From: Pseudomonas sp. LRP2-20
GTDB taxonomy: Bacteria; Pseudomonadota; Gammaproteobacteria; Pseudomonadales; Pseudomonadaceae
Assembly: GCF_024349685.1 (NCBI RefSeq)
Contig: NZ_AP025944.1
Location: 2,238,001 to 2,302,000 of the forward strand
Direction: 5' to 3'
DNA length: 64,000 nt
Position numbers and translations under genes: made by a program. This document shows, in pieces, positions 35,604 through 63,200 of the stretch; positions within the stretch are counted from its first letter, which is position 1, and the number at the start of each line of letters is the position of its first letter. Under the pieces are notes generated by a model that worked only from the letters and a program-made list of their open reading frames with translations, did no database searches and was not told the origin of the DNA.

Positions 35604-35669
35604 CCGCCAACCCTATCCCTGGGTAGCGGCAAACGCAGCGGCTACCCACTGCCTAGAAGGAGTATCACC

Positions 35670-36575: not shown

Positions 36576-36600
36576 CCCCACCGAATCACTGGAGACATTC

Positions 36601-37275: not shown

Positions 37276-37290
37276 TCCAGGAGCATTCCC

Positions 37291-38616: not shown

Positions 38617-38634
38617 TTCATCTCACAGGCTATT

Positions 38635-38769: not shown

Positions 38770-38802
38770 AGGGCATCTCTTCATTCACACAGGAGTGACT
38801 CC

Positions 38803-40233: not shown

Positions 40234-41646
40234 TCAGTGCCCCATGGCCAACTTGGCACTGTTCTGCCGACGGCGGTAGGCACTGTCACGCGAAGCCAGC
40301 CACCAGTACAGCGGCGAAGTGATTGCCAGGCCCACCAGCCACGACAGGTCAGCGCCGTTGATGTGCTCGGAGATCGGCCCGACGTACAGCGGGGTGTTCA
40401 TGAACGGAATCTGCACCACGATGCCCACCGCATAGGCAATCAGCGCCTGCGGGTTGTATCGGCCGTAGATCCCGCCATCGACCTTGAAGATCGACTGGAT
40501 GTCGTAGTCGCCCTTGTGGATGGCATAGAAGTCGATCAGGTTGATCGCCGTCCACGGCACCAGCACCACCAGCAGCACCAGCACCATGTCGACGAAGTGG
40601 CCGATGAAGTCGGCCGAGGCGAACACCGCCACCACGCAGCAGGCGGCCAGCACGATCAGCGATAGCACCGCACGGCTTTTGGCAGTGGGGATCCAGCGGT
40701 AGGCGAAGGTCTGCACCAGGGTGATGATCGACAGCACCGCACCATACAGGTTGAGGGCGTTGTGGCTGATCACGCTGAGCAGGAACAGCACCAGCATCAC
40801 CGGGCCCAGGGTGCCGGTCGCGAGCTTGACCGCGTCCATGGTGTCCACGCCAGCCGGGATCGCCAGCACCGCCACGGCGCCGAAGATGAACGACAGGCTC
40901 GAACCCAGGGCCGAACCCAGGTAGGTGGTCCAGAAGGTCGAGCTGACTTTCACGTCAGCCGGCAGGTAGCGCGAGTAGTCCGACACGTACGGGGCGAAGG
41001 CGATCTGCCACAGCGCTGCCAGCGACACGGTGGCCAGCCAGCCGGCCAGGTTGAAGCCGCCACGGGTGAGGAAGTCGTCACTTTGCACATGGCTGAAGAT
41101 GTAGCCAAAGCCGACCACGATGCCGATCCCCAGCACCCAGGTGCCGATGCGGTTGAGCACGTGGATGAAACGATAGCCGATGATGCCGATGATGCCCGAC
41201 CCCAACGCACCGATGACGATACCCACCGGCACCGGTACGGCTTCGACCACGCCATGCAGCGACTTGCCGGCCAGGACGATGTTGGAGGCGAAGAAGCCGA
41301 TGTACATCACCCCGGCGATCACCACCACCAGCAAGGCGCCAAGGGTGCCGAACTGGGCGCGGCTCTGGATCATCTGCGGGATGCCCATCTGCGGGCCCTG
41401 GGCCGAGTGCAGCGCCATCAGCACGCCGCCGACCAGGTGGCCGACCAGGATGGCGACGATGCCCCACACCAGGTTCAGGTGAAACAGCTGCACGCCCAGC
41501 GCGCCGGTGACGATGGGCAGCGGCGCGATATTGCCGCCGAACCACAGTGTGAACAGATCCCTTACCTTTCCATGGCGGTCTTCCGGCGGTACGTAGCCGA
41601 TCGTGTGTTTTTCTATGAGGGGTGCCGAATTGGCTGCACTGGTCAT
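40234..41646 (-). CDS. NCS1-family nucleobase/cation symporter (paralogue A)
   Basis: A 470-residue inner-membrane transporter with about twelve segments. The N-terminal HTIGYVPPEDRHGKVRDLFTLWFGGNIAPLPIVTGA and the loop SAQGPQMGIPQMIQSRAQFG are typical of cytosine-permease-like NCS1 proteins. They import nucleobases, hydantoins or vitamins with a cation. It is a close paralogue of the permease at 54579. The ATG at 41646 follows GGAG; the longer frame to 41673 is not needed. No catabolic gene lies next to it. Confidence 0.88.
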   Translation of the reverse strand: MTSAANSAPLIEKHTIGYVPPEDRHGKVRDLFTLWFGGNIAPLPIVTGALGVQLFHLNLVWGIVAILVGHLVGGVLMALHSAQGPQMGIPQMIQSRAQFGTLGALLVVVIAGVMYIGFFASNIVLAGKSLHGVVEAVPVPVGIVIGALGSGIIGIIGYRFIHVLNRIGTWVLGIGIVVGFGYIFSHVQSDDFLTRGGFNLAGWLATVSLAALWQIAFAPYVSDYSRYLPADVKVSSTFWTTYLGSALGSSLSFIFGAVAVLAIPAGVDTMDAVKLATGTLGPVMLVLFLLSVISHNALNLYGAVLSIITLVQTFAYRWIPTAKSRAVLSLIVLAACCVVAVFASADFIGHFVDMVLVLLVVLVPWTAINLIDFYAIHKGDYDIQSIFKVDGGIYGRYNPQALIAYAVGIVVQIPFMNTPLYVGPISEHINGADLSWLVGLAITSPLYWWLASRDSAYRRRQNSAKLAMGH

Positions 41647-42060
41647 GACTGACTCCAAGGCAAGGTGGGGCATCGGGTGTTGCCCGGATGCGTGCCGGCG
41701 AAGGGCGACGCGTTCTTGTTGGAGCGATGATGCGGGGCGCGGAGATAACGAGAAATTAGTAAATATGTGCCCATAAACCTTAAAAAACCTAAGGCTGACA
41801 AAAGCTTAAGCGGTGGACGGTAGCAAGGAGGGTGCCAGCTGGCTGGAGGGCTTGGAATAGAGGGGGCTGCGCTGTTCGTCGGTGCAAGGGGTGGGCTGTC
41901 GTGGTGCACAGTGCGCGTTGACAGGGCAGGTGTAAAGGCTGCCTGTGCCGGCTTCTTCGCGGGTACACCCGCTCCCACAGGTACATCGAAAACCTGCGAG
42001 TCAGCGTTGTCCTTGTGGGAGCGGGTTTACCCGCGAAGAGGCCGGCACAAGAGAAAAATG
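41647..42060. other. Gap between NCS1 and Lrp genes
   Basis: Its right part is a REP pair at about 41946-42047 (CTTCTTCGCGGGTACACCCG with its inverted partner). The left part is AT-rich just upstream of the NCS1 gene, including the small inverted repeat CCTTAAAAAACCTAAGG at 41778-41794, and probably holds that gene's promoter. No convincing gene is present. Confidence 0.55.
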
Positions 42061-46807: not shown

Positions 46808-47371
46808 TCAGCGAATGAAGTGCACCTTGCCACTGTCATCGTTCCCCATATAGATGCCATACACCCCGGCCTGGCGCTCGAGGATGTAGCGCTCGAGAAT
46901 CTGCCGAATCGCCGGGTAGTAGATCTCATTCCAGGGAATTTCGTCGGGTTCGAAGAACTTGTACGCCAGTGTCTCCGGCCCGTACTGCCCGGTCTCCTCG
47001 GTGGCGATGGCGCGGAAGATGATGTACACCTCGCTTATCTTCGGCACGCTGAAGATCGAATAGGGCGAGACGATGTCGGCGCGCACGCCGCTTTCTTCCC
47101 ACACCTCGCGCAAGGCCGCCTGCTCGGTGGTCTCGCCGGCTTCCATGAACCCGGCCGGCAAGGTCCAGGTGCCGGGGCGCGGCGGGATGGCGCGCTGGCA
47201 CAGCAGGTACTTGCCGTCACGCTCGATGATGCAGCCGGCGATGATCTTCGGGTTGATGTAATGGATGTAGCCGCAGCCGGTGCAGTGCAGGCGTTCGTGG
47301 GTATCGCCTGTGGGAACGCCCCGGGCCAGTTCCGTGGTGCAGTGCGGGCAGTAGCGCGGGGCGTTGGGCAT
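46808..47371 (-). CDS. Nudix hydrolase with zinc ribbon
   Basis: A 187-residue protein with an N-terminal zinc ribbon (Cys8, Cys11, Cys30, Cys33) and a complete Nudix box at residues 74-95 (GFMEAGETTEQAALREVWEESG). It should hydrolyse a nucleoside diphosphate linked to another group, possibly NADH-like or ADP-ribose-type compounds, but the substrate is not known. It starts one base after the GntR stop, so it is cotranscribed with that regulator. Confidence 0.9.
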   Translation of the reverse strand: MPNAPRYCPHCTTELARGVPTGDTHERLHCTGCGYIHYINPKIIAGCIIERDGKYLLCQRAIPPRPGTWTLPAGFMEAGETTEQAALREVWEESGVRADIVSPYSIFSVPKISEVYIIFRAIATEETGQYGPETLAYKFFEPDEIPWNEIYYPAIRQILERYILERQAGVYGIYMGNDDSGKVHFIR

Positions 47372-47372
47372 G

Positions 47373-48125
47373 TCAGCGGCCTATTCGAGGTTCCTTCAGG
47401 GCCAAGGGCTCGACGATGTCGCGCACCTTGGTGTTGTCGTCCTGCTTCTGGCGCAGGTACTCCAGGGCTACCTTGGCAGCGGCGCGCACGTGATCGACCG
47501 AAGCCTGATGAGCCACCAGCGGGTCGCCACTCTTGATGGCCTCGACGATCTTCTCCATCTCGCGGTTGCTGGCGCCACGGCGGTTTTCCTGCGACACCGA
47601 GGTGGCGCGCAGGTAGCTGATGCGGGCCTGCAGCTGGCGCAGTTGCTGGGCCGCGACCTGGTTGCCGGAGCCTTCCAGGAGCACGTCGTAGAAGCCTTGC
47701 ACCGAGTCCAGCACCTGTTGCAGTTCGCCTTCTTCGAGGGCTTCGCGGTTGACCTCCAGCGCGCGTTCCAGGGCGCGGATGTCCTTGGCCTTGGCGTTGA
47801 GGGTGAACAGCTGCACGATCAGGCCTTCGAGCACGCAGCGCAGCTCGTAGATGTCGCGGGCGTCTTCCAGGGTGATGATGGCCACGCGCGGGCCCTTGGC
47901 GTCGGCGAATTCCACCAGGCCTTCGGATTCCAGGTGGCGCAGGGCCTCACGCACCGAGGTGCGGCTGACGCCAAGGCGGTCGCAGAGGTCGCGTTCGACC
48001 AGGCGGTCACCCGGCAGCAGATGGAAGTTCATGATCGCGCCGCGCAGCTTGTCGAGCACGATTTCGCGCAGGGTAACGGGGTTGCGGTTGACCTTGAAGC
48101 TGTCGTCGAGGGGCTGGCGTTTCAT
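47373..48125 (-). CDS. GntR/FCD-family regulator of the adjacent catabolic cluster
   Basis: A 250-residue regulator with an N-terminal GntR winged helix (NFHLLPGDRLVERDLCDRLGVSRTSVREALRHLESEGLVEF) and an FCD effector domain. It lies at the end of the catabolic cluster, on its strand, 90 bases after the carboxymuconolactone decarboxylase-like gene. FCD regulators bind palindromes like TGGTATACCA, which occur upstream of three units of this cluster, so this protein is the best candidate for their regulator. TTG-ATG doublet: the ATG at 48125 was chosen. Confidence 0.88.
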   Translation of the reverse strand: MKRQPLDDSFKVNRNPVTLREIVLDKLRGAIMNFHLLPGDRLVERDLCDRLGVSRTSVREALRHLESEGLVEFADAKGPRVAIITLEDARDIYELRCVLEGLIVQLFTLNAKAKDIRALERALEVNREALEEGELQQVLDSVQGFYDVLLEGSGNQVAAQQLRQLQARISYLRATSVSQENRRGASNREMEKIVEAIKSGDPLVAHQASVDHVRAAAKVALEYLRQKQDDNTKVRDIVEPLALKEPRIGR

Positions 48126-48215
48126 CAAGTGCGCTCTGAATGAGGCTGCCCGGCCACAACTGCAATAGCACCACGAACCTCGGGTGCTCCTTGCGTGGGT
48201 TCGAACAGCCCGCTG

Positions 48216-48605
48216 TTAACGGGTTGACTCCGCATCGGCTTCAGCGAACGCTTCGCGGGCCAGGCGGAAGCTGTCCACCGCCGCGGGCACGCCGCAATAA
48301 ATGCCGACCTGGAGCAGGATCTCGCGAATCTGTTCACGGCTCAGGCCATTACGCAATGCGCCGCGAATATGCAGCTTGAGCTCGTGGGGCCGGTTGAGCG
48401 CGGAAATCATGGCCAAGTTTATCATGCTGCGCTCTTTCAGCGAGAGGCCTTCGCGGCCCCAGACGTGGCCCCAGCAATACTCGGTGACCAGCTCCTGCAG
48501 CGGCTGGGTGAACGCGTCGGCGTTCTGGATCGAGCGGTTGACGTATTCCTCGCCCAGCACCTGGGTGCGGATCTGCAGGCCTTTCTCGTACTTTTCGTTG
48601 CTCAT
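48216..48605 (-). CDS. Carboxymuconolactone decarboxylase family protein
   Basis: A 129-residue protein of the CMD/PcaC-type family: GLQIRTQVLGEEYVNRSIQNAD, TEYCWGHVWGREGLSLKERSMINLAMISAL and REILLQVGIYCGVPAAVDSFRLA. It lacks the AhpD CxxC pair, so it is of the decarboxylase/hydrolase-like branch, which acts in the lower parts of aromatic or heterocycle pathways. The ATG at 48605 follows CGGAG. It lies between the GntR gene and the REP array. Confidence 0.87.
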   Translation of the reverse strand: MSNEKYEKGLQIRTQVLGEEYVNRSIQNADAFTQPLQELVTEYCWGHVWGREGLSLKERSMINLAMISALNRPHELKLHIRGALRNGLSREQIREILLQVGIYCGVPAAVDSFRLAREAFAEADAESTR

Positions 48606-48683
48606 GCGCAGTACTCCGGAATAAAACAGGGACCGCAACCGAGGGTGAGACGATTAGCGCGGCCCCTGAAAAAGGGGTGAAAC

Positions 48684-48902
48684 GGGGGCCGCTGTGCGGC
48701 CCATCGCCGGCAAGCGCGGCTCCCACAGGTACAGCACAGGGCTATAAGTCTGTGGAATTCCCGCAGGAGCCACAGGTACAGCACAGGGCCATAAGTCTGT
48801 GGAATTCCCGCAGGAGCCACAGGTACAGCACAGGACCAGCAGTCTGCGGAATTCCTGTGGGAGCCGCGCTTGCCGGCGAAAGGGCTGCAAAGCAGCCCCG
48901 GC
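48684..48902. repeat. REP pair enclosing a 47-bp tandem repeat
   Basis: Outer REP units (GGGGGCCGCTGTGCGGCCCA and the inverted GCCGCGCTTGCCGGCG) enclose three copies of a 47-base unit that begins CACAGGTACAGCACAGG, starting at 48724, 48771 and 48818. Copies 1 and 2 differ at a single position; copy 3 diverges in its right half. The spacer of a REP pair has been amplified. Confidence 0.82.
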
Positions 48903-48911
48903 GGTCTCAAG

Positions 48912-49397
48912 TCAGCCCAGCGGCGGCAGGGCGCCCAGTTTGCCTTTGTGGTAGACCATCGGCGTCACCGGCTCGGCCGGCAGCACCAGGTTCTTCACCG
49001 CGCCGACGATGATCGCGTGGTCACCGCCGTCGTATTCGCGCCACAGTTCGCACTCGATGATCGCCGTGGCCCTGGCCAGCAGCGGGTTGCCCAGCTCGCT
49101 CAGGTGCCACTCGACGCCTTTGGCCTTGTCCTTGCCCTTGCCAGCGAAGGCATAGGCCTCGGCGGTCTGGTCGGCGGACAGCAGGTGAATGGCGAATTGC
49201 TTGCTGTCACGCAAGATCGGGTAGGTGTCCGACGCATAGTTGGGGCAAAACAGCACCAGCGCCGGGTCGATCGACAGCGCGCTGAACGCGCTGGCGGTGA
49301 TGCCGACGATGCCGCCGTCGGCGTCCAGGGTGGTGACCACGGTGACGCCGGACGGGAACGAGCCCATCACGTCTTTGTAGATGCCTGGTTCGATCAT
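48912..49397 (-). CDS. Flavin reductase (HpaC-like), paralogue A
   Basis: A 161-residue NAD(P)H:flavin oxidoreductase of the flavin-reductase-like family: GSFPSGVTVVTTLDADGGIVGITASAFSALSIDPALVLFC binds flavin, and FAIHLLSADQ and ECELWREYDGGDHAIIVG follow. It should supply reduced FMN to the luciferase-like monooxygenase encoded 3.8 kb away. It is a very close paralogue of the protein at 53824 in the same cluster. It lies 13 bases after the ALDH gene. Confidence 0.92.
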   Translation of the reverse strand: MIEPGIYKDVMGSFPSGVTVVTTLDADGGIVGITASAFSALSIDPALVLFCPNYASDTYPILRDSKQFAIHLLSADQTAEAYAFAGKGKDKAKGVEWHLSELGNPLLARATAIIECELWREYDGGDHAIIVGAVKNLVLPAEPVTPMVYHKGKLGALPPLG

Positions 49398-49410
49398 CTC
49401 GTGCTACCTC

Positions 49411-50892
49411 TTAGCGCATCACAAACGGGTCGGGCATCGGCGCGGTGGACAGGTTGATCCACACGGTCTTCAGCTCGGTATAGGCCAGCACCGAATCGAT
49501 GCCGCTCTCGCGGCCGTAGCCGCTGTTCTTGAAGCCGCCGATCGGCGCCATGGCCGACACGGCGCGGTAGGTGTTGACCCAGATGATCCCCGAACGCACG
49601 TCGCGGGCCAGGCGGTGGGCACGGCCCAGGTCGCGGGTCCAGATGCCGGCGGCGAGGCCGAACTGCGAGTCGTTGGCGATGGCCAGGGCCTCCTCCTCGG
49701 TCTTGAAGCGGATCACCGCGGCGACCGGGCCGAACACCTCTTCCTGCATGATGGTCATCGAGTTGCTGTCGCACTCGAACAGGGTCGGCTCGTAGAACCA
49801 GCCTTCACCTTCGACTTCGGCACGCTTGCCGCCCATGTGCAGCTTGGCGCCTTCAGCCTTGGCCGCAGCGACCAGGCCTTCGACCACGGCCAGTTGCTGG
49901 GCGGTGGCCATCGGGCCCATTTCGCTGGCATCGTCCTGCGGGTTGCCGATGCGGATGCGCTTGGCACGGGCGATCAGGCGCTCGACGAATTCGTCGAAGA
50001 TCTCGTCCTGTACCAGCAAGCGCGAGCCGGCCACGCAGCTCTGCCCGGAGGCGGCATAGATGCCGGCCACGGCGCCGTTGATGGCGCTGTCCAGGTCGGC
50101 ATCGGCGAAGATGATGTTGGGCGACTTGCCGCCCAGTTCCAGCGACAGCTTGGCGAAGTTCTCGGCGCTGCTGCGCACCACGTGGCGGGCAGTGGCGGCG
50201 CCGCCGGTGAAGGCGATCTTGCGCACCAGCGGGTGGCGGGTCAGTGCTGCGCCGGTGCTCGGGCCGTAGCCGGTGACCACGTTGACCACGCCTGGCGGGA
50301 AGCCGGCTTCGAGGGCCAGGCGGGCCAGTTCGAGGATGGTCGCCGAGGCGTGCTCGGACGGCTTGAGCACGATGGTGTTGCCGGCGGCCAGGGCCGGGGC
50401 CAGCTTGATCGCGGTCAGGTACAGCGGGCTGTTCCAGGGGATGATCCCGGCCACCACGCCGATCGGCTCGTGCACGGTGTAGGCGAACAGGTCCGGCTTG
50501 TCCAGCGGCAGGGTGCCGCCTTCGAGCTTGTCTGCCAGGCCCGCGGTGTAGTGGAAGAACTCTGGCAGGTAACCGACCTGGCCGCGGGTTTCGCGGATCA
50601 GCTTGCCGTTGTCACGGCTTTCCAGCTGGGCCAGGTGTTCCTTGTTCTCGGCGATCAGGTCACCCAGGCGACGCAGCAGCTTGCCGCGCGCGGTGGCGGT
50701 GATGCTGCGCCACTGCTTGCTGTCGAAGGCACGCTGGGCGGCCTGAACGGCCAGCTCGACATCGGCTTCGTCGGCGTCGGGCAGTTGCGCCCAGGCCTGG
50801 GCAGTGGCCGGGTTGAGGCTGTCGAAGGTCTTGCCGCTCTGGGCATCGAGCCATTGGCCGTCGATGCACATCTGGAAACGAACGAGGGTCAT
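49411..50892 (-). CDS. Aldehyde dehydrogenase
   Basis: A 493-residue NAD(P)+-dependent aldehyde dehydrogenase with all catalytic residues: Asn154 (GIIPWNSP), Lys177 (VLKPSE), Glu252 (LELGGKSPN) and Cys286 (SGQSCVAGSR). It should oxidise an aldehyde intermediate to the acid. Sequence resembles aminoaldehyde and betaine-aldehyde type enzymes, but substrate is open. Its start overlaps the end of the alpha/beta-hydrolase gene by four bases. Confidence 0.95.
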   Translation of the reverse strand: MTLVRFQMCIDGQWLDAQSGKTFDSLNPATAQAWAQLPDADEADVELAVQAAQRAFDSKQWRSITATARGKLLRRLGDLIAENKEHLAQLESRDNGKLIRETRGQVGYLPEFFHYTAGLADKLEGGTLPLDKPDLFAYTVHEPIGVVAGIIPWNSPLYLTAIKLAPALAAGNTIVLKPSEHASATILELARLALEAGFPPGVVNVVTGYGPSTGAALTRHPLVRKIAFTGGAATARHVVRSSAENFAKLSLELGGKSPNIIFADADLDSAINGAVAGIYAASGQSCVAGSRLLVQDEIFDEFVERLIARAKRIRIGNPQDDASEMGPMATAQQLAVVEGLVAAAKAEGAKLHMGGKRAEVEGEGWFYEPTLFECDSNSMTIMQEEVFGPVAAVIRFKTEEEALAIANDSQFGLAAGIWTRDLGRAHRLARDVRSGIIWVNTYRAVSAMAPIGGFKNSGYGRESGIDSVLAYTELKTVWINLSTAPMPDPFVMR

Positions 50893-51722
50893 GCAACAAT
50901 CCCCTTGGCGGATTCGGTGAGGGTGCGGGCTTGGGCGAGGAAGTCCAGGAGCATCTTGTTGACTTCACGCGGTGCTTCCACTGGCATCATATGCCGTTGT
51001 TCGGCGAGGACCACGCTTTGCGCGCCAGGAATGCTGGCAGCGAGCTGGCGGGTCATGGCCGGGGTGGAGCCCGAGTCGAGTTCGCCGGTGGCGATCAGCG
51101 TCGGCACCTGGATGCTGCCCAGGTCGCCTGCGCGGTACATGTCCTGGGTGGCGAACAGCGAATAAGTGGTGTGGTAACCCTGCGGGTCGTTGCTTGCCAG
51201 CACCTGGCGAATGGCGGCGACCTGCGCCGGGTTGGCCGCCTTGTATTCGCGGCTGAACCAGCGGTCGAGCGCGGCGTCGACGTTGGCGTCGGGGCCAAGC
51301 TGTGCTGCCTGGGCGGCACGGGCGATGACGCCGGCACTCTGCTCGGGGGTGCGGTTGAACACGCTGTTGAGCACGACCAGTGCAGCCAGGCGCTGCGGGT
51401 AGTTGAGGGCAAATGCCCGGGCGACCAGGCCGCCCATGGAGAAGCCGATCACGGTGGCTTGTTGAATCTGCAGGTGGTCGAGCAGTTCGGCGAGCTGGTC
51501 GGCGTAGCCTTCCAGGCCGATGTCGGCGGCCGGCAGCGCACTCTGGCCGTGGCCGAGCATGTCGTAGGTGATGACGCGGTAGTCGTTGGCCAGGCCCACG
51601 ATCTGACCACCCCACATTTCCTTGTTCAGGCCCACGCCGTGGATCAGTACCACGGGTTGACCCTGGCCGACGGACAGGTAGCTGGTGCCGGCAGGTGTAC
51701 GTTCAGCGACAGGCTGAATCAT
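50889..51722 (-). CDS. Alpha/beta-hydrolase fold protein
   Basis: A 277-residue hydrolase with the oxyanion segment VVLIHGVGLNKEMW and nucleophile Ser95 in VIGFSMGGLV; the acid and histidine are likely in TGELDSGST and EQRHMMPVE. It probably opens a lactone, amide or enol-lactone intermediate, like RutD or PcaD. The ATG at 51722 follows GGAGCGCCCTCC; the frame to 51767 adds nothing. It overlaps the ALDH by four bases and lies 68 bases after the PF06684 gene. Confidence 0.9.
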   Translation of the reverse strand: MIQPVAERTPAGTSYLSVGQGQPVVLIHGVGLNKEMWGGQIVGLANDYRVITYDMLGHGQSALPAADIGLEGYADQLAELLDHLQIQQATVIGFSMGGLVARAFALNYPQRLAALVVLNSVFNRTPEQSAGVIARAAQAAQLGPDANVDAALDRWFSREYKAANPAQVAAIRQVLASNDPQGYHTTYSLFATQDMYRAGDLGSIQVPTLIATGELDSGSTPAMTRQLAASIPGAQSVVLAEQRHMMPVEAPREVNKMLLDFLAQARTLTESAKGIVA

Positions 51723-51790
51723 GGAGGGCGCTCCTTGAAGGTCGGGCGCGGCGGGTAAGCACGCCACGCCCCGGCCCGTCTTGGTTGTTG

Positions 51791-52387
51791 TTATTGAGCG
51801 TTGGCTTTTTCGGCAGCCAGTTCTTCCAGGTCGATGTAGCGGTTGCCGATGCGCGGGTGCAGGCGGCCGCCGTCGGCTGCGCCCAGAACCACGACGATTT
51901 CATCGGCGCGCGGGGCGTCTTCGATCTGCATTTCCAGGGTGATGTAGTGCGAACGCAGGCCTTCGTCGTCCTTCTGCATCATCGGGATCTGGATCGAGGT
52001 GCCTGGGCCGCCGCGCTTGTTGGTGAAGCTCAGGTAGCTCTTGGCCTTTACCGCTTCGCGGTAGTGGTTGCCGAAGCGCAGGGTGTGGATCACCGCCGAG
52101 GCGTGTTCGATCTCGCCGTCGGCGCCGACCACGGCGGCCTTGCCGTAGGCTTCGATCTTGTCGGCACCGCCGATGGCAGCGGTCAGGCGCTCGACCATCA
52201 GCGCACCCAGCTCCGAGCAGTTGGCGCGAATTTCCGGCTTCAGGTCTTCAACGAAACCGCGACCGGCCCATGGGTTCTTGATCACCACGGCCAGGCCGAC
52301 CATGGTCACCGGCTTGTCGGTGGCCTTGCCGCCTTCGATGCGGGTCTCTTCGGAGTAGGTGACGATCTTGCGGATTTCGAAACTCAT
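51791..52387 (-). CDS. PF06684 (amino-acid synthesis / DUF1185) family protein
   Basis: A 198-residue protein of the family annotated as amino-acid synthesis protein. MSFEIRKIVTYSEETRIEGG, VGLAVVIKNPWAGRGFVEDL, GADKIEAYGKAAVVGADGEIEHASAVIHT and APRADEIVVVLGAADGGRLHPRIG are its marks. Structures of the family show a chorismate-mutase-like fold; its chemistry is unknown. Its position between the monooxygenase and the hydrolase argues for an enzyme step in this pathway. The ATG at 52387 follows AGGAG, and an operator-like palindrome lies 40 bases upstream. Confidence 0.85.
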   Translation of the reverse strand: MSFEIRKIVTYSEETRIEGGKATDKPVTMVGLAVVIKNPWAGRGFVEDLKPEIRANCSELGALMVERLTAAIGGADKIEAYGKAAVVGADGEIEHASAVIHTLRFGNHYREAVKAKSYLSFTNKRGGPGTSIQIPMMQKDDEGLRSHYITLEMQIEDAPRADEIVVVLGAADGGRLHPRIGNRYIDLEELAAEKANAQ

Positions 52388-52426
52388 GGGTGGCTCCTGG
52401 TGAGGGTTATCAGCTCTTGTTGTCTG

Positions 52427-52438
52427 ATGGTATACCAT
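52427..52438. promoter_or_regulatory. Palindromic operator upstream of the PF06684 operon
   Basis: ATGGTATACCAT is a perfect 12-base palindrome, preceded by TGTCTG and followed by AATAT, 40 bases upstream of the start at 52387. It has the TGGTnnACCA form of FCD-type GntR operators and recurs upstream of two more units of the cluster. Confidence 0.72.
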
Positions 52439-52526
52439 AATATTTGTTGTGCAAGAGGTGGCTGGAAATTTCTCTTGCGAGGGGACGAAAGGTGGCCTGA
52501 TGCCTTGATTTATGGGGGCTCTGTAC

Positions 52527-52625
52527 TGGCCTCTTCGCGGGCAAGCACGCTCCCACAAGTAATGCGAAGCCTTCGGGCCCGCGCTGTACCTGTGGGAGCG
52601 GGCTTGCCCGCGAAGAGGCCAGCAC
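52527..52625. repeat. REP pair
   Basis: Inverted units GGCCTCTTCGCGGGCAAGCA and GGGCTTGCCCGCGAAGAGGC lie between the monooxygenase gene's terminator and the operator of the PF06684 operon. Confidence 0.87.
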
Positions 52626-52631
52626 AGGCTT

Positions 52632-52654
52632 AAAAAAAGCCCGCTCACGCGGGC
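52632..52654 (-). terminator. Rho-independent terminator of the LLM monooxygenase transcript
   Basis: On the minus strand GCCCGC, four bases and GCGGGC form a GC stem followed by seven T. It lies 53 bases after the stop of the monooxygenase gene (52708), so that transcript ends before the next operator. Confidence 0.8.
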
Positions 52655-52707
52655 CACTGGGGCCCACGGGAGCGGGCGCGTCCCGCAATGACTCAGGCAA
52701 TGGGAAT

Positions 52708-53748
52708 TCAGGCGAACGCTGGCACCACTTCCTTGATGAACAGCTCGAGCGACTTCTTCTTCTCGGCATGGGGCAGGCTGTTGTCGCACCAGAAGCTGAA
52801 CTCGTCGACACCGAGCTCCTGGTAGTACTTGATGCGGGCGATGATCTCTTCCGGCGTGCCGATCATGGTGTTCTTGCGGATGTTCTCCAGCTGGAACGCT
52901 GGCACTTCGGCGAACTTCGACTCCGGGCTCGGCTCGAGGAAGCCGTTGACCGGGGTGGTCTTGTTGCCGAACCAGGCATCGAAGGTGCGGTAGAAGCGCG
53001 AGATGGCCTGGGCACCGATCTTCCAGCCTTCAGGCTCCGACGGGCTGTGCACGTGGGTGTGGCGCAGCACCATCAGTTGCGGGCGCGGCACGTCCGGGTT
53101 GTTGTCGAGGGCGGCCTGGAACTTGTTCTTCAGGTCCAGCACTTCCTCGTCGCCCTTCATCAGCGGGGTGACCATGACGTTGCAGCCGTTGGCCACGGCG
53201 AAGTTGTGCGAATCCGGGTCGCGGGCGGCGATCCACATCGGCGGGGTGGCGTTGAACGGCTTCGGCACGCTGGTGGAGGTCGGGAACTTGTAGACTTCGC
53301 CGTCATGGGCGTAGTCGCCTTGCCACAGCTTGCGCACCACCGGGACCATTTCACGCAGGGCCTTGCCGCCGTCGGTAGCCGGCATGCCACCGGCCATGCG
53401 GTCGAACTCGAACTGGTAGGCGCCACGGGCCAGGCCCACTTCCATGCGGCCATTGCTGATCACGTCGAGCAGGGCGCATTCGCCGGCGACGCGGATCGGG
53501 TTCCAGAATGGCGCGATGATGGTGCCGGCACCCAGGCGGATCTTCTCGGTGCGCGCGGCCAGGTAGGCCAGCAGCGGCATCGGGCTTGGCGAGATGGTGT
53601 ATTCCATGGCGTGGTGTTCGCCGATCCACACGGTGCTGAAACCGCCGTGCTCGGCCATCAGGGTCAGTTCGGTCAGGTCTTCGAACAGCTGGCGGTGGCT
53701 GACCTGTTCATCCCAACGTTCCATGTGCACGAACAACGAAAATTTCAT
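52708..53748 (-). CDS. Bacterial-luciferase-like (LLM) flavin-dependent monooxygenase
   Basis: A 346-residue enzyme of the luciferase-like family, which uses reduced FMN supplied by a separate reductase. Family segments include MKFSLFVHMERWDEQ, MAEHGGFSTVWIGEHHAMEY, AARTEKIRLGAGTIIAPFWNPIRVAGE and WIAARDPDSHNFAVANGCNVMVTP. RutA of the uracil pathway is the best-known relative that opens an N-heterocycle, so this enzyme is the likely first step here. It lies 75 bases after flavin reductase B and ends at a clear terminator. Confidence 0.92.
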   Translation of the reverse strand: MKFSLFVHMERWDEQVSHRQLFEDLTELTLMAEHGGFSTVWIGEHHAMEYTISPSPMPLLAYLAARTEKIRLGAGTIIAPFWNPIRVAGECALLDVISNGRMEVGLARGAYQFEFDRMAGGMPATDGGKALREMVPVVRKLWQGDYAHDGEVYKFPTSTSVPKPFNATPPMWIAARDPDSHNFAVANGCNVMVTPLMKGDEEVLDLKNKFQAALDNNPDVPRPQLMVLRHTHVHSPSEPEGWKIGAQAISRFYRTFDAWFGNKTTPVNGFLEPSPESKFAEVPAFQLENIRKNTMIGTPEEIIARIKYYQELGVDEFSFWCDNSLPHAEKKKSLELFIKEVVPAFA

Positions 53749-53823
53749 GGGGCTTTCCTCAACGCTTGAAAGTGTCTGTCGCCAGGCTGCGCAGGCGCCA
53801 GGTGTCTCGATTCAGAATAGGCT

Positions 53824-54309
53824 TCAGGCAAAGGCCGGCAGGCTGGCCATCTTGCCGCGGCAGTAGACCATCGGTCGTGGTGCTTCTTCAGGGACGATCA
53901 GGTTGTGTACCTTGCCGACCATGATGGCGTGGTCGCCACCTTCATACTCGCGCCACAGTTCGCACTCGATGACGGCGGTGGCACCGGCCAGGATCGGGTT
54001 GCCCAGCGCGCTCAGGCTCCACTCGATGCCGGTGGCCTTGTCCTTGCCTTTCTTGGCGAATGCGTAGGCTTCGGTCTGCTGTTCACCGGAGAGCAGGTGA
54101 ATGGCGAAGCGCTTCTGCTTGATCAGCACAGGGTAGGAGTCGGAGGTGTAGTTGGGGCAGAACAGCACCAGCGGCGGGTCCATCGACAGGGAGGAGAAGG
54201 CGCTGGCGGTCAGGCCGACGACCGAGCCGTCGTCGTCCAGGGTGGTGATGACGGTCACGCCGGACGGGAAGGAGCCCAGGACGTTCTTGTAGACGGTTGC
54301 GTCGATCAT
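53824..54309 (-). CDS. Flavin reductase (HpaC-like), paralogue B
   Basis: A 161-residue reductase closely similar to the one at 48912 along its whole length (GSFPSGVTVITTLDDDGSVVGLTASAFSSLSMDPPLVLFC). It probably gives FMNH2 to the monooxygenase directly downstream. The ATG at 54309 (MIDATVYKN) was chosen because the longer frame to 54420 crosses the operator at 54366. A GAGG precedes it. Confidence 0.92.
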   Translation of the reverse strand: MIDATVYKNVLGSFPSGVTVITTLDDDGSVVGLTASAFSSLSMDPPLVLFCPNYTSDSYPVLIKQKRFAIHLLSGEQQTEAYAFAKKGKDKATGIEWSLSALGNPILAGATAVIECELWREYEGGDHAIMVGKVHNLIVPEEAPRPMVYCRGKMASLPAFA

Positions 54310-54365
54310 CTCATGTACCTCTAAGGGGCTGCGGTGGTCCGCGGTTTTTATCGTTGATGTGTCTG

Positions 54366-54377
54366 ATGGTATACCGT
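54366..54377. promoter_or_regulatory. Palindromic operator upstream of flavin reductase B
   Basis: ATGGTATACCGT, in the context TGTCTGATGGTATACCGTAATA, matches the site at 52427 at all but one base of a 20-base stretch. It lies 57 bases upstream of the start at 54309. Confidence 0.72.
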
Positions 54378-54537
54378 AATACCTATTTTGCAAGCGGAAT
54401 TTTCGGCCCTGGTTTTTCACGATGAACGGCTCAAGGCCACGTAAACCGTGGGCTTGAGCGGTGAGGCGGTTTGTCGCAGGGGTTGCGCGAACAGATCAGT
54501 GGGCGTTTTTTCCTACGGATCAGTGTTGTCAAAAGTT

Positions 54538-54556
54538 TGGAATACCATAATATGGT
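54538..54556. promoter_or_regulatory. Palindromic operator upstream of the NCS1 permease
   Basis: TGGAATACCA differs by one base from the TGGTATACCA core, and it overlaps ACCATAATATGGT (ACCAT and ATGGT around AAT). It lies 22 bases upstream of the permease start, so the permease should share the regulation of the catabolic genes. Confidence 0.65.
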
Positions 54557-54578
54557 CCGCAGCTGAGAGGCCGCCTAG

Positions 54579-56033
54579 ATGCGGTTTCCTTACAAAGATA
54601 AAAAACGACCTTTCGAGCTGAATCCTATGTCCCAACCGTCGTCGCAACACCAGTTTGTCGAGAATCACACGGTCGATTACGTTCCACCTGCCGAGCGCCA
54701 CGGGAAGGCGCGCGACCTGTTCACCCTCTGGTTCAGTACCAACATCGCGCCACTGCCTATCGTCACCGGCGCCATGGTGGTCCAGGTGTTCCACCTGAAC
54801 CTGCTGTGGGGGCTGATCGCAATCGTGCTGGGTCATCTCATCGGGGGCGTGTTCATCGCCCTGGCCTCCGCGCAGGGACCGCAGCTGGGCATTCCGCAGA
54901 TGGTCCAGAGCCGGGGCCAGTTCGGCCGCTATGGCGCCTTGCTGATCGTGTTCTTCACCGCGCTCATTTATGTCGGCTTCTTCATTTCCAACATCGTCCT
55001 GGCGGGCAAGACCATCCACGGCATCGCCCCGGGCGTGCCGATGCCAGGCGCTATCGTGATCGGTGCCCTGAGTGCGACGGCCATTGGCGTGATCGGCTAC
55101 CGCTTCATTCATATTCTCAACCGCATTGGCACCTGGGTGATGGGGTCGGCGCTGCTGGCCGGTTTCATCATGATGTTCGTCCAGGAACTGCCTGCCGACT
55201 TCTTCAGCCGCGGTGCGTTCAACCTGTCCGGTTTCATCGCCACCGTGTCGCTGGGCGTCATCTGGCAGATCAGCTTCTCGCCGTACACCTCCGACTACTC
55301 GCGCTACCTGCCGCGTGAACTGGGCATCGCCAAGCCGTTCTGGGCCACCTATTTCGGCGCTACGCTGGGCACTATCCTGTGCTTCAGCTTTGGTACGATC
55401 GCGGTGCTGTGCGTGCCGGAAGGCACCGACGCGATGGATGCGGTCAAGCAGGCCACCGGCTGGCTGGGCCCGATCCTGATGGTGCTGTTCCTGCTCAACA
55501 TCATCAGCCATAACGCGCTCAACCTGTATGGTGCGGTGCTGTCGATCGTGACGGCGATCCAGACCTTCATCGCCCAGTGGACACCGAGCATCAAGGTGCG
55601 GGTGATCCTGGCGTCGGTGATCCTGGTGGGTTGCGCGATGGTGGCGTTGAACGCCTCGGCGGGCTTCATCGGCCAGTTCATCGGCCTGATCCTGGCGCTG
55701 CTGCTGGTGCTGGTGCCGTGGGCGTCGATCAACCTGATCGACTTCTACCTGATCAAGAAGGGCCAGTACGACATCGCTTCGATCTTCCGCGCCGACGGCG
55801 GCATCTATGGCCGCTTCAACCACCACGCGATCATTGCCTATGCCTGTGGGATCCTGGTGCAGCTGCCGTTTGCCAACACGTCGCTGTATGTGGGGCCGTA
55901 CTCGAACATTGTCGAGGGGGCTGACCTGTCGTGGTTGTTCGGTTTGATCGTGACCGTGCCGCTGTATTACTGCCTGGCGACGCGCGGCCAGGCTGCCGAG
56001 AAGGCAGGGCGGGTGGTTAGCGTCAACGACTGA
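54579..56033 (+). CDS. NCS1-family permease (paralogue B) of the catabolic cluster
   Basis: A 484-residue transporter with the same marks as paralogue A at 40234 (VDYVPPAERHGKARDLFTLWFSTNIAPLPIVTGA; SAQGPQLGIPQMVQSRGQFG) and about twelve membrane segments. It is divergent from the flavin reductase B-monooxygenase unit and has the shared operator, so it probably imports the pathway's substrate, perhaps a nucleobase, hydantoin or similar N-heterocycle. The ATG at 54579 follows GAGAGG; an ATG at 54627 is an alternative. Confidence 0.9.
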   Translation: MRFPYKDKKRPFELNPMSQPSSQHQFVENHTVDYVPPAERHGKARDLFTLWFSTNIAPLPIVTGAMVVQVFHLNLLWGLIAIVLGHLIGGVFIALASAQGPQLGIPQMVQSRGQFGRYGALLIVFFTALIYVGFFISNIVLAGKTIHGIAPGVPMPGAIVIGALSATAIGVIGYRFIHILNRIGTWVMGSALLAGFIMMFVQELPADFFSRGAFNLSGFIATVSLGVIWQISFSPYTSDYSRYLPRELGIAKPFWATYFGATLGTILCFSFGTIAVLCVPEGTDAMDAVKQATGWLGPILMVLFLLNIISHNALNLYGAVLSIVTAIQTFIAQWTPSIKVRVILASVILVGCAMVALNASAGFIGQFIGLILALLLVLVPWASINLIDFYLIKKGQYDIASIFRADGGIYGRFNHHAIIAYACGILVQLPFANTSLYVGPYSNIVEGADLSWLFGLIVTVPLYYCLATRGQAAEKAGRVVSVND

Positions 56034-56184: not shown

Positions 56185-57810
56185 TCAGACCTTGAACTGC
56201 GCGACCATGCCATTCAAGTCCACCGCCAGGCGCGACAGGTCCTGCGCCGCTGCACTGGTCTGATTCGCTCCCGCCGATGTCTGCATCGCCAGATCACGAA
56301 TGTTCACCAGGTTGCGGTCCACCTCCCGCGCCACCTGCGCCTGCTCCTCGGAAGCACTGGCGATCACCAGGTTGCGCTGGTTGATCGACGCGATCGCCTC
56401 GGCAATCACCTCCAGCGCCTCACCGGCACCTTGCGCCACTTCCAGCGTGCCGTTGGCCCGGCCTCGGCTGCTGTGCATTGCCGACACCGCCCGTTCGGTA
56501 CCGTTCTGGATCCCGGCGATCATCTGCTCGATCTCGGCCGTCGACTGCTGGGTACGGTGGGCGAGGGCGCGCACCTCATCGGCCACCACGGCAAAGCCGC
56601 GACCGGCTTCACCGGCACGGGCGGCTTCGATCGCCGCGTTCAGTGCCAGCAGGTTGGTCTGCCCGGCAATCGCGCCGATCACATCGAGCACGCGGCTGAT
56701 CTCGTTGGCGTTGCTGGCCAGCTGTTCGATCTCGGAGGAGGTGCCCGTCACGTCATTGACCAGATGCTGGAGCGAGGCCAACGCCTGGTTGACCTGGTCT
56801 CGGCCATCGCGGGTGGTCTGGTCGGCACCTTTCGAGGCGTCGGCCGTGCTCACGGCGTTGTTCGCCACTTCTTCCACGGCGGCGGTCATCTGGTTGACGG
56901 CAGTCGCGGCCTGGTCGATCTCCGCGCTCTGCTGGTGCAGGCCGCGGCTGGTGTCTTCAGTGACGGTGTGCAGTTCTTCCGAGGCCGAAGCCAGCTGGTC
57001 GGAGGAGGCGGCAATCTTGCGGATAGTCTCGCGCAGGCTGCCCTGCATGCGGCCCAGGGCGCGCAACAGCAGGGCCGGTTCGTCGCGGCCGGCGACACGG
57101 ATATCCCGGGTCAGGTCGCCGGTGGCCACGCGCTCGGCCACGGCGACCGCATCGGCCAGGGGCACCACGATGCTGCGGGTGAGCACCACGGCGATGGCGG
57201 CCAAGGCAAGCATGATGATCACCAGCGAACCGATGATCACGGTGAAGGCTTCGTCGGCCACGTCGCTGCTGCGCTGCGAGGCGTCCTCGGCGCCCTTGCC
57301 GTTGTAGGCGATCAGCGCGGTCATGGCTTTCATCATGGTGTCGGCGTACTGGGTGAGGGGGCCGCTGATCTGTTGCTTGGCCTCGTCCATGCGGCCAGCG
57401 GCGATGGCCTGCAGCACGCGGGTCTGCAGGTCGAGGTATTGCTGGTGGGCTGCATTGAAGGCGTTGAACAGGGCGCGGCCATCGGCGGCGATGAGGGTGT
57501 CCTCATAATCCTTGAGGCGGCCTTTGAGCTGGTCGTTGATGCTCTTGGCCAGGTCGATGTTGCGGGCGCGTTCAGCGGGGCTGTCATCCAGCGCCGCGCG
57601 CAGGGTAATGGCACGGGCGCGACCGAGGTCGGTGCTGATGTCGCCGAGGGAGACCACGGCGGGCATCCAGGTGACACGAATTTCATCGGTGGCGGCGTCC
57701 ATCCGCCGGGTTTCATAGAGTGTGATAAGGCCCATGGCCAGGACCAATACGCCCAACAGGGCGAACACGCTGGTAGCGCGGGTGCCGATCTTCATATTCC
57801 GTAACTGCAT
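56185..57810 (-). CDS. Methyl-accepting chemotaxis protein (4HB sensor)
   Basis: A 541-residue inner-membrane chemoreceptor. A first membrane segment ([20 protein letters not shown]) is followed by a periplasmic four-helix-bundle-like sensor of about 150 residues, a second segment ([24 protein letters not shown]), a HAMP domain and the coiled-coil signalling domain. Its hairpin tip ([34 protein letters not shown]) is the part that binds CheA and CheW. The ligand is unknown. It is not clearly linked to the catabolic cluster although it lies next to it. Confidence 0.94.
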
Positions 57811-59619: not shown

Positions 59620-62166
59620 TTATTTTTCTGAGGATTTAAGGGACTTAATGTAGTCATGTACATCTTTTTTTGACAGCAAAGGGGTCGCTGTGGCAGAAGA
59701 TAACGGGTAGCGCGCGATGAGTTTGCCTGTTTTAATTAGAGCTTCTGCGTACTTAGGTTTTAGAATGAGATTGGCTTGTGGGCAAGTGTAATAGTTACTA
59801 AAAATTTCATCAATTTTACTTTTGTCGCTAGGGGTTATGAATTTTAATTTGTTAATGGTGATAATTTTAATGGTGCCTGGCTTGGTGAATAAGTTGTAAA
59901 ATGCAAGAGGGCTTATGTTGTGGGGTTTGATAACGCTCTGTAAATTGTGTAGATTTAGTTTGAAGCAGTGGTCTAGGTGTGTTCGGTGTTTTGCAGGTGA
60001 TGGGGTCTTTTCGGGGGAGGTATTTCTAATGAAAAAAGGAGAGTTTGTTAAGGATTCAATAGAATATAAGCGCGAACGCGAGATGTCCAGTGGACTTCCC
60101 GTGATTGGCGCTATTCCAAGTTGAGAAAGAGCTTTGACGATTTTTGAAGGGGTGATGCCTAACCAATCGGCTAAAGTGACTGCTCTCACATAAAGCTCAT
60201 AAAATTTATTAACTGACGAGCTGGTGATTAGGCGACGTTTAAGTGTCAGGTGATAAACAGACTTCAAAAGGTTGCGATTTGCCATTGAAGCTATTGCTGC
60301 GGAGTCTACGTGAAGAAGCCTGGCAGTTTCAGTGAACGTTAGGCCATTTTCATGTTCTATAATTGCTCCTTGAGCGGTCTTGCTCTGCAAGCTCTTGAAA
60401 CTGTCTTTAGAATAAAAGATACAGGGCGTGCCATCTATCTCAGGACTGCAGACTGGAACTATATTGAGTTCGGCTGCTTTGCTAGATTGGCGATTTATAG
60501 CGCATCCAAGTAGGTTTGCTGCATCACGTGAGTTGAAATGTTTATCAAGAAAGGTATCAATGGATTCTTTGCTAACAGAGAAGCCATTTTTGGTCTTGAA
60601 AGTATAAGCGCCTTTTAATAGTCCCTTCGAAACTAGACTTCGTATTACCATTCTGCTCCTTCCCATGTAGCACGCACCCTCTGTAACCGTAAGCCAAGTT
60701 TCGGTGGGTGAGTCTGAAATCATCGGAAGGTTAAGTGTGCGTACAGGCGGGGGAGTTATGGAGGAGTTGCAGTAGGCTATGATTGCTGAATGATATTTCC
60801 GGTGTATCAATTTTTCTTGTAATAGCCGACTTCTGCAGCTAGGTGGCGGAATTCCAAGCGCTGCTCGCGCCTTGAGGATGCGTGATGTTGTAAGGTTGTG
60901 GCTGGCTGCTAATAGCTCAATTGACGTTAAGTTATCGTCAAACCGAGATACGGATTCAGTAGTGATAACTGTTTGGCTGGTCGGAGTTCGCAGTCCCGTT
61001 AAAAGACCTTCGTTCAAGATCTCGCGAAGCATCTTTAGGCTAATGCATAATTTTTGCATTGTCTCGGATCTTGACAGATGTAACGGTAGTGCTGGGCTTG
61101 CCTTTACTTTGCCCATGTTGAGACGGAATTTTAACGCCGCGTCAGAAATAGCGAGCGCCTGACGCCAAGTGTAAGGCCCACGGTCACTAATGTTTACAAT
61201 AGATGAGACGAAGGCAAGCCAGTGTGGCATCGGGATTTTAAGCCACGCCCCGAGTTGTGAGCTGATAAGTCTGAACTCTACAGGTTTACCTTTCTTAGCA
61301 TTTAAGCTGTTATTTGTATATTGGAGGGTCGAATTTTCCTCACTGCAGTGGTGGCGTAATGCGCGTAATACAGAGTTCTGCATAATAGGCTGCGGGATTC
61401 GAGAGAATTTAGCAAACAGCACCCGGGCGGGTATGTCTGGATAAAGGGTGCGAAATTTCTTAAGGTTTTCTTCTATCAGTGATTGGCATTCATCGATAAC
61501 GCCTATTGCAATACCCAAAATGGCTCGGTCTGTTGAGCTCTGCCAGTCACACGCAAATGAATTTGTAATGGATATCAAAATTTTTTGCAATGCGTCGAAT
61601 TTTTCCTGGTCATGGGATCGAAATATTTTAAGCAAAAATTGCTCAATCACCGTGTCTGCTGGGTCGCAGGGAGGCGACTTGAGGACGCAACCGCATTGGC
61701 ATTTGTCCTCTATGGGCTTCCACCATTTAATTGATTTTTTGCAGCGTGGGCATATCAGAATGTATTGAGTGTGGTGGAATGGGCAAAATGTGCTTAGTTT
61801 TATGTCTATTATGAAGTGTTCCTTGCCTTCTTTCCAACAGTTAGAGCAAAATGCATTGTTGCGTGCTCTTATGTACTTTCTAGGCACTTTTATGCCGCTG
61901 ATTATCAATGAAGATGACACTACCTCATCTGGTGCGGGCGGGTAGAAACCACTGAGGACTAGGTCTCGAAGCGGGCCAGCCTCCTCAGCCATTTTCATTA
62001 TTGCTGGATTGTCTTGACAAATAGGAGCAGAGCTAATGGAGGTAGTGCCCAAGATTTTGAAAATTTCACGCCCGTAAAAACATCCATGTTTAAATGCCAT
62101 GCGTTTAAGTATGCTGGTGGGGCTTTCTTCCGCTTGTGGGATAGGAATAAATAGTAAGTTATTCAT
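59620..62166 (-). CDS. TniQ/TnsD-family target-selection protein, unusually long
   Basis: An 848-residue protein with the TniQ start (LLFIPIPQAEESPTSILKRMAFKHG) and a cysteine/histidine cluster at residues 107-160 (Cys107, Cys110, Cys128, His131, Cys139, Cys142, Cys156, Cys158, Cys160) that should bind zinc. It contains several helix-turn-helix-like segments further on (for example LTFTETARLLHVDSAAIASMANRN and VTLADWLGITPSKIVKALSQLG). TniQ/TnsD proteins recognise the target site and recruit the AAA+ protein. Most TniQ are 300-500 residues, so the extra 350-450 residues are notable. Its start overlaps the ATPase stop by eight bases; GGAG precedes it. Confidence 0.82.
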   Translation of the reverse strand: MNNLLFIPIPQAEESPTSILKRMAFKHGCFYGREIFKILGTTSISSAPICQDNPAIMKMAEEAGPLRDLVLSGFYPPAPDEVVSSSLIISGIKVPRKYIRARNNAFCSNCWKEGKEHFIIDIKLSTFCPFHHTQYILICPRCKKSIKWWKPIEDKCQCGCVLKSPPCDPADTVIEQFLLKIFRSHDQEKFDALQKILISITNSFACDWQSSTDRAILGIAIGVIDECQSLIEENLKKFRTLYPDIPARVLFAKFSRIPQPIMQNSVLRALRHHCSEENSTLQYTNNSLNAKKGKPVEFRLISSQLGAWLKIPMPHWLAFVSSIVNISDRGPYTWRQALAISDAALKFRLNMGKVKASPALPLHLSRSETMQKLCISLKMLREILNEGLLTGLRTPTSQTVITTESVSRFDDNLTSIELLAASHNLTTSRILKARAALGIPPPSCRSRLLQEKLIHRKYHSAIIAYCNSSITPPPVRTLNLPMISDSPTETWLTVTEGACYMGRSRMVIRSLVSKGLLKGAYTFKTKNGFSVSKESIDTFLDKHFNSRDAANLLGCAINRQSSKAAELNIVPVCSPEIDGTPCIFYSKDSFKSLQSKTAQGAIIEHENGLTFTETARLLHVDSAAIASMANRNLLKSVYHLTLKRRLITSSSVNKFYELYVRAVTLADWLGITPSKIVKALSQLGIAPITGSPLDISRSRLYSIESLTNSPFFIRNTSPEKTPSPAKHRTHLDHCFKLNLHNLQSVIKPHNISPLAFYNLFTKPGTIKIITINKLKFITPSDKSKIDEIFSNYYTCPQANLILKPKYAEALIKTGKLIARYPLSSATATPLLSKKDVHDYIKSLKSSEK

Positions 62167-63106: not shown

Positions 63107-63200
63107 TATGACCTCCAAGGATATCTGGCCCCTCACTGATCCACTGAGAGGTAGTGAAGGTAAATACAGGTGTTTTTCCCTTGATTTGATTCCTGCTGCG

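Follow-up and report, generated by a model that had tools for sequence, protein, structure and literature searches.

What does the nine-gene cluster at positions 47373-56033 of a 64,000-nucleotide stretch of the Pseudomonas sp. LRP2-20 genome (contig NZ_AP025944.1; the whole stretch is called the window here) break down? The first-pass annotation, made from the sequence alone, had seen in it a relative of the Rut pathway of uracil degradation that acts on some N-heterocycle or cyclic amide. We compared the cluster with known catabolic systems and with related genomes, and infer from the gene-by-gene match, a shared operator, the co-inheritance of the genes and their linkage to methylamine genes that it is probably a diverged form of the tgn cluster for the catabolism of trigonelline (N-methylnicotinate), an osmolyte widely found in plants and in the sea. 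The substrate and the reactions discussed below are predicted on this basis. Labels beginning with L denote stretches or loci, and those beginning with G denote genomes.

Open reading frames (ORFs) and profile searches confirmed that all nine genes are open and complete, lie in the order first described and belong to the families then assigned:

47373-48128, minus strand: GntR/FCD regulator (PF00392, PF07729)
48216-48605, minus strand: carboxymuconolactone decarboxylase (CMD)-family protein (PF02627; TIGR02425 PcaC, 154.7 bits against a cut-off of 155.7)
48912-49397, minus strand: short flavin reductase B, 161 amino acids (PF01613)
49411-50892, minus strand: aldehyde dehydrogenase (ALDH), TgnC counterpart, best match to TgnC of Acinetobacter sp. 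PK01
50889-51722, minus strand: alpha/beta hydrolase, TgnD counterpart (PcaD-like; TIGR02427, 183 bits, below the cut-off of 255.85)
51791-52387, minus strand: PF06684 protein, TgnF counterpart (PF06684, 240.9 bits)
52708-53748, minus strand: luciferase-like monooxygenase (LLM), an oxygenase of the TgnB family in a clade of its own (PF00296, 187.8 bits)
53824-54309, minus strand: short flavin reductase A, 161 amino acids (PF01613)
54579-56033, plus strand: NCS1 permease, the probable substrate importer (PF02133, 155.9 bits)

The starts of the hydrolase (51722), the CMD (48605) and reductase A (54309) were set inside the longest ORFs, from the translations. The genome comprises one contig of 6.03 Mb and has a single PF06684 gene.

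A blastn search with the AT-rich cluster of L028 led to a cluster on a plasmid of Acinetobacter sp. PK01, for which the RefSeq annotation gives the names tgnA, tgnB and tgnC; six Acinetobacter records were counted in plasmid searches with PF06684, while a 16S probe pattern for Acinetobacter matched 0 of 293 genomes of the order and 0 of 229 of the class. The RefSeq name of tgnC refers to the compound (Z)-2-((N-methylformamido)methylene)-5-hydroxybutyrolactone. The PK01 plasmid encodes, in order, GntR, the PF06684 protein, the hydrolase, tgnA, tgnB, tgnC, a cytosine permease, succinate-semialdehyde dehydrogenase (SSADH), CMD and an ammonium transporter, and upstream of this run lie purU, folD and sarcosine-oxidase-like genes. 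A. baylyi DSM 14961, located through PK01 TgnB (93% identical), has GntR, PF06684, hydrolase, TgnA, TgnB, TgnC, NCS1, SSADH and CMD in the same order (L095).

We used BLAST to compare the nine window proteins with the PK01 tgn proteins and E. coli RutA-G (RutR was left out of this set). The best match of every one of them was a PK01 protein. The LLM is 48.7% identical to TgnB over 347 amino acids (358 bits), the hydrolase 35% identical over 252 amino acids (149 bits) to the PK01 hydrolase (TgnD), which likewise lies beside PF06684, and the NCS1 permease 55% identical to the cytosine permease (509 bits); identities of the PF06684 protein, the GntR regulator and the CMD are 56%, 36% and 79%, respectively. 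The ALDH scores 541 bits (52% identity) against TgnC and 316 bits against the SSADH of the same cluster, and its assignment as an SSADH was therefore rejected. Local alignments with A. baylyi gave identities of 76% for CMD, 55% for PF06684, 54% for NCS1, 52% for ALDH, 48% for the LLM, 38% for the reductase, 37% for GntR and 34% for the hydrolase. As a gene set, the whole cluster is matched by the characterised tgn pathway of the soil bacterium A. baylyi, a finding that the first-pass annotation had named as one that would count against its own reading; the match is qualified by the 34-55% identity of the enzymes, CMD excepted. An SSADH lies in the same module at L029, L041, L042, L045, L077, L078 and L081 (five genomes), is 64-71% identical to that of PK01, and scores above the TIGR01780 cut-off in L029 and L077, the two tested.

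Four LLM relatives among the 120 listed (75-79% identical) carry the JGI name flavin-dependent trigonelline monooxygenase, which is a homology-based name. A passage in PMC7913881 calls TgnF a homologue of a PF06684 protein, and one in PMC8269262 states that the aromatic ring is opened by TgnA/TgnB. For PF06684 itself, a role in amino-acid synthesis has been proposed from fold and gene neighbours (in a section of PMC2954203); we considered this role and rejected it. That the protein might be a RidA-like enamine enzyme is a candidate idea only.

The same comparison speaks against kinship with Rut. The LLM scores 29.6 bits against RutA (E 0.001, 47% coverage) and 358 bits against TgnB, and was rejected as a RutA relative. 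The hydrolase gives 55.5 bits with RutD and 149 with TgnD, and the two reductases give 60.8 and 53.5 bits with RutF and 98 and 106 with TgnA. The NCS1 permease has no significant BLAST match to RutG, nor does any protein of the window cluster match RutE; RutB and RutC likewise find no significant match there, as the first-pass annotation had noted. It had treated ALDH and PF06684 as additions to a Rut toolkit. They are not additions, because the trigonelline pathway has both, as TgnC and TgnF. Of the earlier interpretation, the opening of an N-heterocycle by the LLM and a reductase with an aldehyde dehydrogenase acting next probably stands, whereas the Rut-like nature of the cluster does not.

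Three copies of a palindrome precede genes of the cluster:

52425-52440: putative palindromic operator, TTATGGTATACCATCA on the minus strand, about 40 bp before PF06684, with the core TGGTATACCA
54364-54379: putative operator with one mismatch to the core, before reductase A-LLM; core at 54367
54535-54550: putative operator with one mismatch to the core, before the NCS1 permease; core at 54538

The palindrome was first found in the window and afterwards tested elsewhere. We surveyed 34 stretches from 26 genomes for sites with at most one mismatch in the 320 bp upstream of each gene, counted once per genome. Such sites lie upstream of PF06684 in 18 of 18 cases, of reductase A in 15 of 18, of NCS1 in 13 of 15 and of a DUF1330 gene divergent from RibBA in 13 of 13. 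The counts for the remaining genes were 8/12 (the binding protein of an ABC transporter), 10/21 (LLM), 2/8 (gmaS), 2/18 (GntR) and 2/15 (CMD), and none was found in this survey before ALDH, hydrolase, reductase B or the NUDIX gene next to GntR. The real palindrome gave 84 hits in total, against 0-2 for each of fifteen shuffled palindromes. With the same tolerance it lies upstream of both PF06684 and SSADH in the Acinetobacter stretches; in Burkholderia and Paraburkholderia (L017, L107) and Lampropedia (L117) it stands before PF06684, as it does, with one mismatch, on pSymA of S. meliloti (L016). It was not found in an Arthrobacter cluster (L011) or in four stretches with a third clade of LLM, both described below.

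A stricter pattern of 14 bases matched the genome of the window at five places, and its reversed control at none. Three of the five lie at the cluster. The other two are at 3.778 and 3.779 Mb, upstream of DUF1330/RibBA and of a binding-protein ABC transporter; an N-methylglutamate-dehydrogenase-like operon is about 5 kb away from them. Thus, the regulon probably consists of this cluster, flavin synthesis and a second importer, and scattered pieces of the cluster appear to share one control switch. We propose that GntR acts on the palindrome.

The cluster is divided in many members of the genus into two modules, NCS1-reductase A-LLM and PF06684-hydrolase-ALDH-reductase B-CMD-GntR. Of 199 genomes of the genus, 112 have the window-type LLM and 113 have its PF06684 partner; the one genome by which the two sets differ is a fragmented assembly of 650 contigs (G367). 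In some genomes scoring for these counts was confined to the best candidates, LLM matches were partial or in two pieces in 2 of the 112 (G337, G371), and two genomes that have only a third-clade LLM with PF06684 (G335, G408) were left out; counting them gives 114 and 115. The two genes are less than 3 kb apart in 25 of the 112 genomes, 3-25 kb in 40, 25-100 kb in 18 and more than 100 kb in 9, and lie on different contigs, at an unknown distance, in 20; in 87 the modules are thus more than 3 kb apart or on different contigs. Because the sets differ by only one genome, the grouping of these genes goes beyond chance (Fisher p ~1e-56, uncorrected for phylogeny). The module has no CMD next to it in 3 of 18 genomes (G017, G018, G022), and none was found in L012-L016, which are rhizobial and roseobacter stretches, gaps that speak against an essential role for it there.

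About 7 kb from the cluster lies a set of gmaS-mgsABC-amt-like genes that the first-pass annotation did not mention. We propose that 34269-40107 encodes gamma-glutamylmethylamide synthetase and N-methylglutamate synthase:

34269-35603, plus strand: type III glutamine synthetase, gmaS-like (TIGR03105, 675 bits, cut-off 469.6)
35670-36575, 36598-37275 and 37291-38616, plus strand: mgsABC-like, proposed N-methylglutamate synthase subunits (GATase, GXGXG and Glu_synthase domains)
38644-40107, plus strand: ammonium/methylammonium transporter Amt (TIGR00836, 433 bits, cut-off 343.3)

Homologues of gmaS occur in 47 of the 199 genomes, 44 of which also have the LLM (the exceptions are G215, G453 and G473), and gmaS lies 3-25 kb from the LLM in 27 of these 44. 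At L178 and L179, sox-like N-methylglutamate-dehydrogenase genes, folD, purU, gmaS, mgsABC, amt and LLM are consecutive. The genome of the window encodes a SoxB-like subunit at 3.767 Mb that is 88% identical to that of PK01, and a separate 41% paralogue. An N-methylated substrate would be the simple reason for this coupling to methylamine genes. Beside amt is a second NCS1 permease (40234-41673, minus strand), 61% identical to that of the cluster, with a 99% copy in L180 and a 90% copy in L083.

We also examined how the LLM relates to TgnB. A branch with support of 100/99 divides the LLM tree in two. On one side are the enzymes of Acinetobacter, Burkholderia, rhizobia and roseobacters, and on the other are the window clade, a Mesorhizobium/Caballeronia group and a distant third clade (L086, L171, L174; 100/100). 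The root is uninformative because the RutA branch is very long. The window clade (17 rows, 100/99; L029 and L031 are included less surely) consists of pseudomonads and actinobacteria, among them a 77% identical LLM from a plasmid cluster of Arthrobacter dokdonellae. Of 123 alignment columns invariant both in the window clade (17 sequences) and in the TgnB clade (15), 108 have the same residue (88%). The Mesorhizobium/Caballeronia group (4 sequences) shares 122 of 145 such columns with the window clade (84%) and 129 of 140 with the TgnB clade (92%), and the comparison with the third clade (3 sequences) gave 102 of 159. No Acinetobacter-clade LLM was found in the 199 genomes of the genus: matches were either at least 79% identical to the window LLM or 43-45%; matches of the lower range came from four genomes, each of which has the third clade (92-94% to L086). 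Among 50 genomes that have an Acinetobacter-clade LLM (50 of 80 loci), none showed an LLM more than 55% identical to that of the window.

The TgnB-like LLM family has diversified, and the Mesorhizobium/Caballeronia group may act on a substrate other than that of TgnB. Two Caballeronia genomes (G732 and G739; L172, L173) have two TgnB-like sets back to back, and a third-clade LLM is found elsewhere in G732 and in G740. The third, distant LLM/PF06684/ALDH/hydrolase/CMD cluster (L086:8735-14159, also L190-L192) occurs in 4 of the 199 genomes of the genus (G335, G339, G408, G418).

In A. baylyi ADP1, for which Perchat et al. are said to have described TgnA-F in 2018, TgnA/TgnB reportedly cleave the ring directly and TgnC oxidises the product; TgnD is then said to yield CO2, methylamine, formate and succinate semialdehyde, which TgnE oxidises with the help of TgnF. 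The order of reactions proposed for the window follows this work and what other papers say of it. The NCS1 permease would import trigonelline, a short reductase would provide reduced flavin, and the LLM would cleave the pyridinium ring. The ALDH would oxidise the ring-opened aldehyde or lactone, and the hydrolase would then break its product down to formate, CO2, methylamine and succinate semialdehyde, with the PF06684 protein assisting the last oxidation. Methylamine would pass to GmaS, MgsABC and N-methylglutamate dehydrogenase. GntR would control the operons through one palindrome, which also precedes the gene for the flavin-synthesis protein RibBA. CMD possibly contributes a decarboxylation and is a candidate only.

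The first substrate could differ from that in this scheme. With the same chemistry and lower pathway, the LLM could instead open another N-methylpyridinium, such as homarine (N-methylpicolinate), 1-methylnicotinamide or N-methylpyridinium, whose products converge on methylamine and succinate semialdehyde. Several observations allow this and weigh against trigonelline. Identity to the Acinetobacter proteins is 34-55% for the ring-opening and early enzymes, with about 50% between the LLM clades, and both window reductases match TgnA at 38% over 130 amino acids and have 161 residues against its 310. Closer are the back-end proteins CMD (76-79%), SSADH (70-71%, in relatives in the genus), SoxB-like (86-88%) and PurU (77-80%); SoxA-like (62-69%), FolD (65-68%) and SoxG-like (56-58%) are less so. 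The divergence of the front-end enzymes beyond that of CMD, SSADH and SoxB thus allows a different first substrate. There are several TgnB-like clades, and the paired sets in G732 and G739 suggest substrate diversification. The second Caballeronia group, which lies beside TgnB, is as conserved in invariant residues as the window clade, so that residue conservation does not fix the substrate. The mutual exclusion of the two clades (0/199 and 0/50) fits an equivalent function, but is confounded by taxonomy. Moreover, 68 of the 112 LLM genomes have no gmaS match at the cut-off, the window cluster has no SSADH (elsewhere in its genome one was not sought), and we found no growth, enzyme or mutant data for the window LLM clade in the literature. 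A marine study judged the action of TgnAB on homarine unlikely for steric reasons (in a passage of PMC8269262). The permease family, CMD and operator are the same as in Acinetobacter, and pseudomonads are reported to use trigonelline (P. syringae pathovars do and P. coronafaciens does not, according to part of PMC6283537) although the Acinetobacter clade is absent from all 199 genomes. On balance we consider another N-methylpyridinium unlikely, with a small but real chance of being correct.

Trigonelline as the substrate is further supported by S. meliloti. Its homologues on pSymA (L016) form a PF06684-hydrolase-reductase-LLM-ALDH run between noeB and nifT, which by its place we take to be trc, the trigonelline catabolism genes of the Sinorhizobium meliloti pSym. 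The title of Goldmann 1991 places trigonelline catabolism genes in the symbiotic region of pSym.

Two further readings fare worse. The one first suggested, in which the pathway is Rut-like and its uncharacterised substrate is an N-heterocycle or cyclic amide without an N-methyl group, can point to the shared families of LLM oxygenase, PF01613 reductase, alpha/beta hydrolase and nucleobase-type permease, but similarity to RutA, RutD, RutF and RutG is weak or absent next to that to the Tgn proteins, and the coupling to methylamine genes and the operator common with tgn also argue against it; we regard it as very improbable. The frequent separation of the modules (25/112 within 3 kb) might indicate that two unrelated pathways, LLM-reductase-NCS1 and PF06684-hydrolase-ALDH-reductase-CMD, were fused by chance. 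However, the LLM accompanies the PF06684 module in 112 of 113 genomes, and the remaining one is a fragmented assembly; both modules are preceded by the same operator even when they are apart; and the genes form one run in Acinetobacter, S. meliloti and Burkholderia. We give chance fusion almost no credence. A bolder elaboration, which we hold as doubtful, is that the window LLM clade is a second pyridinium ring-opening lineage with its own N-methylpyridinium, with a dispersed regulon that includes flavin synthesis by RibBA (perhaps with NUDIX) and, in some genomes, methylamine assimilation, and with CMD as a 2-formylsuccinate decarboxylase.

Next to the cluster on the regulator side is a possible flavin-nucleotide enzyme, found at the same position beside GntR in 18 of 18 genomes examined:

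46808-47371, minus strand: NUDIX hydrolase with a Zn ribbon (PF00293, PF14803), adjoining GntR

On the other side, a protein that by eye resembles a methyl-accepting chemotaxis protein (56185-57810, minus strand) adjoins the NCS1 permease; it has the same place, at 80-86% identity, in L035, L036 and L180 (10 stretches looked at), and is possibly a chemoreceptor for the pathway substrate. The amine receptors tested in PMC10104139 bound no trigonelline, according to part of that paper. Farther on, at 59620-63226 (minus strand), lie two large ORFs of 852 and 355 amino acids, the first with cysteine pairs and, by eye, resembling a TniQ-type mobile-element protein.

Trigonelline catabolism as proposed here would give a substrate to genes that occur in 112 of the 199 genomes of the genus and whose annotation goes no further than LLM oxygenase, flavin reductase and 'amino acid synthesis protein'. 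In the open-licence literature we found neither the tgn pathway nor the palindromic operator described for pseudomonads, and searches on homarine, on valerolactam and on TgnA-F by name yielded nothing direct. The operator is a handle for finding scattered members of the regulon, and CMD, NUDIX, RibBA, DUF1330 and the ABC transporter become candidate parts of the pathway.

Set beside known systems, the cluster resembles E. coli rutABCDEFG at superfamily level in its oxygenase, reductase and hydrolase families, but sequence similarity is weak to none and RutB, RutC, RutE and RutG are unmatched. The Arthrobacter pyridine pathway also uses an LLM and a reductase for ring cleavage to succinate semialdehyde (PyrA/PyrE, an amidohydrolase and SSADH); by description, its substrate has no N-methyl group, so no methylamine is expected. 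The A. dokdonellae plasmid cluster (L011:2342-13068) holds the 77% LLM, SSADH, a cytosine permease, riboflavin kinase with NUDIX adjoining it, a tautomerase and two PF06684 genes. Tandem PF06684 genes also occur on Sulfitobacter and Paracoccaceae plasmids (L026:6095-9585, L027:5957-9570) near molybdopterin dehydrogenases, with UPF0280 (L026) or a gene annotated as 6-hydroxynicotinate reductase (L027) as neighbours; PF06684 may belong to the opening of nicotinate/pyridine rings in general. The S. meliloti locus differs in having an ABC transporter instead of NCS1, and its LLM falls in the tree on the same side as the Acinetobacter enzymes (72% to A. baylyi, 50% to the window).

With A. baylyi tgn the cluster has in common the LLM, a flavin reductase, TgnC, TgnD, TgnF, GntR, NCS1, CMD and the operator. 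N-methylglutamate-dehydrogenase-like genes, folD and purU lie beside the A. baylyi cluster and, in some members of the genus, beside the LLM, and Amt is near both the window and the Acinetobacter clusters. The window cluster differs from tgn in having no internal SSADH, and its modules are separable; the RibBA-ABC locus under the operator and gmaS-mgsABC near the cluster belong to the window side, and neither is in the Acinetobacter stretches examined. What is new here is an oxygenase clade separate from TgnB and about 50% identical to it, two short reductases in place of the one long TgnA, and modules that are dispersed yet co-inherited.

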